NCBI GenBank assembly: GCA_903839855.1
Contig: CAIMEB010000057.1
Coordinates: 1-64,000, forward strand
Source of the DNA: an uncultured Methylococcaceae bacterium
GTDB lineage: Bacteria; Pseudomonadota; Gammaproteobacteria; Methylococcales; Methylomonadaceae
Length of the DNA stretch: 64,000 bases
Direction: 5' to 3'
Shown here: piece by piece, positions 584 through 42,150 of the stretch
Layout: each line of letters opens with the position of its first letter
Numbering within the stretch: the stretch's first letter is position 1
Notes under the pieces: model-generated
Seen by the model: the letters and a program-made list of their open reading frames with translations, nothing else
The model's database searches: none
What the model was told of the DNA's origin: nothing
Made by a program: the position numbers and the translations under genes

Positions 584-820
584 TTAATAACTGCCATATT
601 CGGGGGGAGAGAGACCGTACTTTATTAAAGCCTCAAAGTCTTCCAGTACCAGCGGCCTGCTAAACAAATACCCCTGGTAATTTACACAGCCATGATCCAA
701 TAAAAACCGCCGTTGTTCTTCTGTTTCTACCCCTTCCGCGATGACGTTTAGATGCAGATTGTCTGCCATAGCAATAATGGTACGAAATCGGCGTGCCTTT
801 CTTCCTTGGCACTCCAGAAA
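584..820 (-). pseudogene. C-terminal remnant of an EAL-domain (c-di-GMP phosphodiesterase) protein
   Basis: ...TIIAMADNLHLNVIAEGVETEEQRRFLLDHGCVNYQGYLFSRPLVLEDFEALI is the canonical EAL C-terminus; upstream homology is lost within ~15 codons and an in-frame stop lies at ~824-826. Confidence 0.85.
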
Positions 821-827
821 GTCTTAC

Positions 828-1205
828 TGGACCTCAAGTGCGAAATGAAAAGTCATTTTAGTATTCACTTGCAAGGAAAGACTTTCAGAGTAAACAGAAC
901 CCTTCTTAGAGTAAAAGAATACTTGTTTGTAGCAAACAAGATCATGTTTTTTCTAAACAAGGTCATGTTTACTCTAAACAGGCTTTCTTTTGTCGCAAAC
1001 AGAACCTAGAATGCTCATTTCTTGACCTACTGAACGATTCACCACTCATCATTGACTCTGAATAGAGGTCTTTTTAGAGCATTTAAGGTCTTGTTTACTC
1101 TAAAAGAGATTAAGAATGTGACAAACAAGGTCATGTTTAGCGTAAACATGACCTTGTTTGCTATAAAAGAGTCTCTTTTCATTGCAGACACGGATACGAT
1201 AACTG
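828..1205. repeat. Degenerate tandem array, 21-bp period, dyad-containing units (copy A)
   Basis: Units begin at 870, 891, 912, 933, 954, 975, 996 and, in the same phase, at 1080, 1101, 1122, 1143, 1164; e.g. caaacaagatcatgttttttc, taaacaaggtcatgtttactc, taaacatgaccttgtttgcta. Confidence 0.9.
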
Positions 1206-23816: not shown

Positions 23817-24168
23817 AGAAAGAGTCAGCCTATAAGCCGGGTTCTGTCGTGAACAGTCATTCATCTAGGCTGCAAGTCACCTTACAGCTCAAGCAATCTA
23901 CCCAGGAACCGCGCGGGCCACGCATCTGTCCCTCTATTTGATCTTGCTCCGAGTGGGGTTTACCATGCCACCGCTGTTACCAGTTGCGCGGTGCGCTCTT
24001 ACCGCACCTTTTCACCCTTACCTATCAAAGTGATAGGCGGTTTATTTTCTGTGGCACTTTCCGTAGACTCACGCCTCCCAGGCGTTACCTGGCACTCTGC
24101 CCAATGGAGCCCGGACTTTCCTCCATTTTATCTTGACAATAAAACAGCGACTGCCCAGCCAACTCTTT
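23817..24168 (-). ncRNA. rnpB: RNase P RNA (bacterial class A)
   Basis: Minus strand contains gaggaaagtccgggctccat, agtgccaggtaacgcctggg, aaggtgaaaaggtgcggtaagagcgcaccgcgc, aaccccactcggagcaagatc, agaacccggcttataggctgactctttc. Confidence 0.96.
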
Positions 24169-40933: not shown

Positions 40934-41437
40934 CTATCCATCTTTAAGAGAACGACGCAAATCCTTAATAAGACGATAAAGGTGTAACGGGTCTGTCGGT
41001 GAGGCAATAAAACCAAACCGTTCATAGAACTGTTTAGCTTGTCTGTCTTTGGCATGAACGGCAAAAGCACGAATACCGCCAATATCGGCAGCTTGCAAGG
41101 TGCGTTTCATTGCGTCCTTCAGTAAACCAGAACCAATACGGCGACCTTGCCAAGCTTTGCTAACAGCAAGCCGCGCTAACAACATAATGGGAACAGGGTG
41201 ATGAGCCAAGCCTTTGGTTAAACGTTCGGGCGCATCACAAAAAGCAATTTCACCCACAACGAGACTGTAAAAACCAATCACCTCTGCATCATGTAGACCA
41301 ATATAGGTTTGTGAGGCGTTGGCTTGCTGATTTCCAAGAGCGTAACGAATCAAAAAACGGTCAAGCTCCTCGCTACCTGAGCTAAAGTTATCGATAGGAT
41401 GGTCACGACGTAGCTTTTCAATACGAAATCCGGTCAT
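40934..41437 (-). CDS. GNAT acetyltransferase, TacT-type toxin
   Basis: LARLAVSKAWQGRRIGSGLLKDAMKR, AVHAKDRQAKQFYERFGF; overlaps DUF1778 gene by 4 nt. Confidence 0.92.
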   Translation of the reverse strand: MTGFRIEKLRRDHPIDNFSSGSEELDRFLIRYALGNQQANASQTYIGLHDAEVIGFYSLVVGEIAFCDAPERLTKGLAHHPVPIMLLARLAVSKAWQGRRIGSGLLKDAMKRTLQAADIGGIRAFAVHAKDRQAKQFYERFGFIASPTDPLHLYRLIKDLRRSLKDG

Positions 41438-41721
41438 TCGACCTTCGTCTCAAATGGGCTTGACTCACGAAATAACTGTTGCAGTTGAGGCACTATTTGA
41501 GGAGGTGCATCGAGTACTGCCATAAATTTTTCCCATTGCTCAGCATCAAGTTCAAAGCGTCGCCGTTCGGTTAGTGTTTCAGTCGCACGTTGCAAAGCAC
41601 TTGCTAAGACAAACTGGCTGACAGAGCAATGAGCGGCTTTAGCAGCGGCGCTTAAAGTCTGTTTTGCTTCCTGTGATAAACGTAAATCGAGTTTTGTGGT
41701 GCGCGTTGATTGAGCCATCAT
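41434..41721 (-). CDS. DUF1778 (TacA-like) antitoxin
   Basis: TTKLDLRLSQEAKQTLSAAAKAAHCSVSQFVLASALQRATETL...; RHH-type DUF1778. Confidence 0.93.
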   Translation of the reverse strand: MMAQSTRTTKLDLRLSQEAKQTLSAAAKAAHCSVSQFVLASALQRATETLTERRRFELDAEQWEKFMAVLDAPPQIVPQLQQLFRESSPFETKVE

Positions 41722-41763
41722 AGTTCCTCCGGTATTGAAGGGAAAGTATCATAGATGACAGAC

Positions 41764-41813: not shown

Positions 41814-42150
41814 TTAACAAGACCCAGAATGCTCTAAAAGGAAAGACTTTCAGAGTAAACAGAACCACTTTTAGAGCAAAAGGATACTTGTTTGTTACAA
41901 ACAAGATCATGTTTACTCTAAACAGACTTCCTTTTGTCGCAAACAGAACCTAGAATGCTCAAAAGGAAAGACTTTTAGAGTAAACAGAACCATTCTTAGA
42001 GCAAAAGAATACTTGTTTGTTGCAAACAAGATCATGTTTACTCTAAAAGAGATTAAGAATGTAACAAACAAGGTTCTGTTTATCGTAAACATGACTTTGT
42101 TTGCTATAAAAGAGTCTCTTTTTATTGCAGACACGGATACGAAAACTGTA
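41814..42150. repeat. Degenerate tandem array, 21-bp period, dyad-containing units (copy B)
   Basis: Units at 41835, 41856, 41877, 41898, 41919, 41940, (20-nt unit) 41961, 41981, 42002, 42023, 42044, 42065, 42086, 42107; ends in gcagacacggatacga as copy A does. Confidence 0.92.

Follow-up and report, generated by a model that had tools for sequence, protein, structure and literature searches.

Dispersed 21-bp arrays phased to two helical turns, and a family of small helical-FN3 genes found with them

Near the left end of a 64,000-nucleotide stretch of DNA from an uncultured Methylococcaceae bacterium (the window, meaning here the whole stretch analysed) lies a tandem array of 21-bp units, copy A. 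The question is what kind of element this is: a coding repeat, an RNA, a mobile sequence or a site for proteins. The preliminary description gave it an exact 21-bp period in phase with the helix, and the numbers agree. Among lags 5 to 69, lag 21 has the highest identity (0.448), followed by lags 63 (0.415) and 42 (0.412); base shuffles (n = 200) have a mean of 0.264 and a maximum of 0.331. Ten AAAC or AAAAG half-sites (892, 913, 934, 955, 976, 997, 1102, 1123, 1144 and 1165) fall in a single phase modulo 21. The pairing of TGTTT with AAACA is also real; there are six perfect TTTRNNNYAAA dyads (926, 968, 989, 1094, 1136 and 1157), all in one common phase. The list of units needs amendment. Phase is kept through degenerate units, as described, but the units placed at 870 and 1080 are themselves degenerate and contain neither (T/C)AAACA nor TAAAAG, and the distance between clear units, put at 63 bp, is 105 bp (997 to 1102), or 5 x 21, with phase kept. 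A three-unit motif with up to two mismatches is matched 16 times in the window, only in copy A and in a second array, copy B (Table 1), and 0 times in 100 dinucleotide shuffles.

Copy A is truncated at the left, because the sequence there is a different dispersed repeat. Its degenerate middle has a counterpart at the same unit positions in four other copies (C181, C123, C247 and C152). In copy B, one 20-bp unit stands between the blocks and slips the phase by 1 base near 41941-41961; a 125-bp tandem duplication lies inside the array. Copy B is an orphan array, with no gene of the FN3 family described below alongside. Gene remnants beside copies A and B were considered and rejected: the tblastn matches lie inside the arrays, and the query ORF itself reads into an array.

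Other features are found nearby. A C-terminal fragment resembling an EAL-domain protein by eye (window 584-769) adjoins the repeat that cuts copy A, and a long inverted repeat, TTACCCATGATAGGGTATAAATTACCTA and its reverse complement, is seen by eye at 357-430. Next to copy B, a GNAT ORF (40934-41437) adjoins the DUF1778-like frame; the two (40934-41748) are possibly a TacAT-type toxin-antitoxin pair.

Table 1. Positions of the arrays and adjoining features in the window
Feature	Position	Strand	Remarks
Different dispersed repeat abutting copy A	about 820..872	.	Second site at C203:1885-1937, 83% identity
Copy A, phased array	868..1205	.	Period 21; truncated at left; clear units at 884-1005 and 1094-1175, middle degenerate but in phase
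Degenerate middle of copy A	1006..1093	.	From CCTAGAATGCTC... to ...AGAGCATTTAAGG
104-residue frame, DUF1778-like antitoxin by eye	41437..41748	-	Neighbour; copy B lies 5' of the frame
Copy B, same array family as copy A	41822..42150	.	Two blocks of five and more units

Copies were sought in the host and its relatives and are present in both. The host genome (3.4 Mb in 294 contigs) has at least six: A, B, C181, C123, C247 and C152. Copy A is a gene-less member of a dispersed family of arrays (family 1) of about 420 bp and about 20 units, with the period fixed at two helical turns. A search of 101 genomes gives strong matches to family 1 in the host genome and three congeneric species, and weaker ones in three more. 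Written in rows of 21, the copies align unit by unit over about 20 units across loci and species, the middle included; copies of different species keep a single phase with almost no indels. Several species have arrays at orthologous positions. Comparison of flanks, as for a MITE, identifies orthologous sites and no clean empty site. No Rfam family or catalogued repeat was found for the array, in line with the preliminary description. Among the neighbours of the host copies there is no partition or initiator domain, and the genes flanking the copies have no common function that could be found. Cooperative binding, nucleoid structuring and partition, which the preliminary description proposed, are candidate roles.

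The units consist of TTTRNNNYAAA and 10-bp linkers. A profile of 256 units adjoining a perfect unit has dyad symmetry that peaks at TTT and AAA; its left side favours pyrimidines and its right side purines. Between species, 21 of 480 cells differ in the TTT and AAA columns, against 121 of 1196 in the rest of the array; the p value of 9e-5 pools four comparisons that are not mutually independent. By eye, left terminal units are often AAT-NNNNN-AAA and right ones TTT-NNNNN-ATT (L165:6882-7155, and the G006, G011, C181 and L131 arrays), a possible boundary signature.

Such symmetry could reflect an array of RNA hairpins, transcribed from the DNA. Some units are perfect 19-base inverted repeats, and a terminator scan flags one. 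However, symmetric positions do not covary among 153 distinct units, and in these units the two flanks of the centre base favour the same letter over the complementary one (z = -6.1). This resembles two separately read half-sites, unlike a pairing hairpin. Many units pair over three bases only, and in an Rfam search of the window at gathering score, class A RNase P RNA (23817-24166, minus strand) is the sole match, with none on the arrays. RNA hairpins are very improbable, and the earlier DNA-level reading holds. The TTTR...YAAA half-sites are predicted to be protein half-sites on DNA; their pattern is as expected of these. A coding heptapeptide repeat, or its relic, is scarcely conceivable. 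Twenty-one bases make seven codons, and short ORFs read FxVNKxx on both strands, but stops interrupt all six frames in 23 of the 23 copies examined and symmetry between the two strands would be left unexplained. A coding repeat is thus largely refuted, as the in-frame stops noted earlier had implied.

Copy C247 provides a link to a gene. It lies about 200 bp 5' of a gene for a 210-residue protein, just upstream of the gene's promoter. The product has three N-terminal helices and an FN3 domain, and no signal peptide by eye. Alone, it has no Pfam or NCBIfam match. Homologues are present in 27 of 61 genomes searched, all congeneric and often with many copies; none were found in plasmids, phages or viral contigs. 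Pfam fn3 matches 12 of 27 family members at E <= 1 (best 0.0012), and PDB profile and Foldseek matches to FN3 domains cover the C-terminal half. The fold was predicted from five sequences (pLDDT 82, pTM 0.51). For the helical N-terminal half no match was found. Searches by sequence and fold revealed no similarity to transposases, nucleases or recombinases, and a search of adjacent genes no conserved partner. To the left of the C247 array (L062:3143-4620), a Cas_NE0113 family gene adjoins an STIV_B116-like (DUF1874) gene; these are a possible CRISPR-accessory pair.

Paralogues of this gene mostly own an array each; the sequences are unrelated, and the period is still 21 or 42 bp. An array is called where lag 21 or 42 beats twelve control lags. 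By this measure 24 of 31 family genes have one upstream and 3 of 30 have one downstream; among control ORFs, 29 of 269 are preceded by one. Near-identical orthologues were dropped, and the 31 genes still include close relatives and are not fully independent. Gene-linked arrays typically occupy positions -525 to -200 relative to the start codon, and a conserved TATACT box and a ribosome site lie between array and gene. In many leaders at L333-L362 the ribosome site is directly preceded by a short inverted repeat, for example GCCCATTTTGGGC, which lies about 20-60 bp upstream of the start codon. Overall, the gene-linked arrays are dyad-symmetric (Stouffer z 7 to 11), and dyads exceed those of shuffles in most; four clearly have no dyad symmetry. 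Array sequences resemble each other almost only where the genes are at least about 75% identical; below this the arrays are unrelated and the N-terminal domain is still similar. Genome samples did not tie the presence of arrays to that of the gene: a scan found 0 in 359 kb of two gene-less genomes and also 0 in 290 kb of two gene-bearing ones.

Family 1 is not alone. The host genome also has two unrelated 21/42-bp arrays (L281:17394-17692 on C34 and L291:15762-16049 on C146) with no FN3 gene alongside; both have dispersed relatives. Family 2 copies lie directly 5' of family genes at G032:C88, G033:C26, G033:C68, G016:C123 and G016:C236, and a family 3 copy does so at G033:C38. Arrays of the genus thus form three families, and every one of these includes both gene-linked and orphan copies. 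This distribution would suit a mobile repeat pair of the REPIN/RAYT kind, in which array and FN3 gene are autonomous, orphans were moved in trans and host function is nil or secondary. Gene-linked and dispersed orphan copies in three families are consistent with it, as are the intergenic positions of arrays beside unrelated genes. Against it, the FN3 protein is unlike the enzymes of mobility listed above, arrays remain at orthologous sites, and no insertion site or target duplication was established. Mobility of this kind is rather unlikely.

Arrays of period 21 extend well beyond the genus. A pattern of three units matches at least 116 stretches in GTDB genomes. Many of these are 21-bp arrays whose outer sequences differ, from Bacteroidota, Verrucomicrobia, Planctomycetes, Spirochaetes and cyanobacteria. 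A reversed control pattern also gives matches. Some of the hits are rejected as arrays, since they resemble a single conserved coding region of Flavobacteriaceae (L113, L151, L211, L216 and L224; L115, L160, L168 and L175), and AT-rich matches of three units may be chance. Nor is TTTRNNNYAAA a universal motif. It is only the pattern of the search, and arrays in the Bacteroidetes MAG G109 have many other sequences.

In 332 kb of G109, a sample partly picked for its arrays, a repeat finder reports 96 rows of period 21, 34 of period 42 and 12 of period 63, with one of period 20 and two of period 22. At loci L253-L272 of this genome (uncultured Bacteroidetes Umea1_bin-1585) there is about one array per 5 kb, an extreme density. 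Each has its own sequence and near-identical units; most are intergenic, between genes in any orientation including divergent, and their dyad symmetry is modest but above that of shuffles (6.06 vs 5.30). Array-rich genomes in general use periods 21, 42, 63 and 84 and hardly any 20 or 22; unselected contigs of relatives have no peak at multiples of 21 bp. Periods that are multiples of 21 agree with two helical turns at 10.5 bp each; codon frame alone would equally permit 18 or 24.

Two further explanations draw on this wider class. The arrays may be a structural module that works regardless of sequence: repetition every 21 bp, the smallest whole number of bases that makes whole turns of 10.5 bp, would bend DNA in one plane and serve as an upstream element or insulator, with no need for specific recognition. 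Unrelated sequences with only the period in common, placed upstream of promoters, argue for such a module. Yet family 1 half-sites are conserved and symmetric, and most gene-linked arrays have more dyads than shuffles; we consider the module unlikely. The arrays might instead be a mutational by-product: in some genomes, copying that measures out 21 bases at a time would generate satellites, under little selection. The G109 arrays, each built of its own near-identical units, and the many unrelated arrays of array-rich genomes point that way. The gene-linked positions, diverged units that stay in phase across species and the conserved half-sites do not, and a by-product is improbable.

Association with the gene family recurs in Bacteroidota. 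A Hymenobacter genome, chosen for having an array, has four family members; two carry an array no more than 800 bp upstream, and for a third the distance is about 1.2 kb. The sole member in an unselected Bacteroidota genome has a weak array. At loci L121, L171 and L186 a member is present with an array upstream. Members at E <= 1e-6 occur in only 2 of 99 Bacteroidota genomes. Homology to the family is weak for the genes neighbouring arrays in Prevotellaceae and Tannerella (E = 0.0035, probability 9%) and better supported for the G109 group (E = 3e-6, probability 88%). Most G109 arrays, like several of the host genome, have no FN3-family gene alongside. Arrays upstream of small-protein genes in two phyla suggest an undescribed array-plus-protein system.

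We prefer, at a probability of roughly 0.42, to read the array as a platform of helix-phased DNA for protein dimers, tied to the helical-FN3 gene family. The dimers, as putative binders, would line up next to one another along a single helix face, with assembly nucleated at the gene's own copy of the array and at orphan copies. The binder would be the FN3 protein or a partner, and the outcome would be local control of chromatin or expression. Arrays lie upstream of the promoter, a position that hints at control or nucleation at that site. Arrays change faster than the N-terminal domain of the FN3 protein, which makes direct reading of the sequence by this protein doubtful; it may instead recognise the geometry, or work together with a second protein. 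A platform is supported by phase, conserved half-sites, lack of pairing covariation, association with the gene, the existence of both orphan and gene-linked copies, recurrence of the link in Bacteroidota and the rarity of periods 20 and 22 in array-rich genomes. It is weakened by the four gene-linked arrays that lack dyads, by the many arrays with no gene, by the genome samples in which arrays and gene did not go together, and by copy B, which tolerates a 20-bp unit.

A broader proposal is more tentative, and we lean against it: a cross-phylum system in which each helical-FN3 paralogue owns a fast-changing two-turn array and orphan arrays are further docking sites, so that platforms diversify themselves under a fixed geometric rule. 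If it is true, a DNA element present in at least two phyla is defined by geometry (two helical turns) and not by sequence, and the large, uncharacterised FN3 family gains a first context that can be tested. The platform model predicts that a 5-bp insertion between units breaks the system. Even if function is modest, it has still to be explained why array-rich genomes have hardly any other periods.

We know of no such array-plus-FN3 system. A literature search covering open-access papers found no earlier account of such arrays. The REPIN-RAYT system consists of repetitive extragenic palindromes and a gene dedicated to them (PMC3116915, PMC3733652). The likeness lies in one gene beside its repeat, many dispersed intergenic copies and palindromic units. 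However, RAYT is a Y1/HUH transposase, whereas the gene here encodes helices and FN3 with no transposase match; the arrays here are tandem and helix-phased, in families that share period and not sequence; and REP units are 20-40 bp and GTAG/CGTC-tagged, whereas the arrays, by inspection, have no GTAG tag. With known FN3-domain proteins, the associated gene product shares the fold of its C-terminal half by Pfam, PDB profile and Foldseek.

In parS-ParB systems and plasmid iterons, dyads or repeats lie about two helical turns apart near the gene for a DNA-binding protein. The spacing is alike; the host copies have no ParB, Rep or ParA-like neighbour, and the arrays here have about 20 units, with several dispersed arrays per genome. 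CRISPR and TIGR systems also place an array beside a conserved gene. Here, in contrast, 21-bp units run head to tail with no alternation of spacer and repeat, dyad symmetry gives no strand, and most arrays have no Cas or Tas protein beside them. Bacterial minisatellites (VNTRs) are likewise tandem intergenic repeats, but in the present arrays many unrelated sequences keep to a single exact period, diverged units stay in phase, and the association is with one gene family. The novelty lies in finding a single period, many sequences and a single gene family together.
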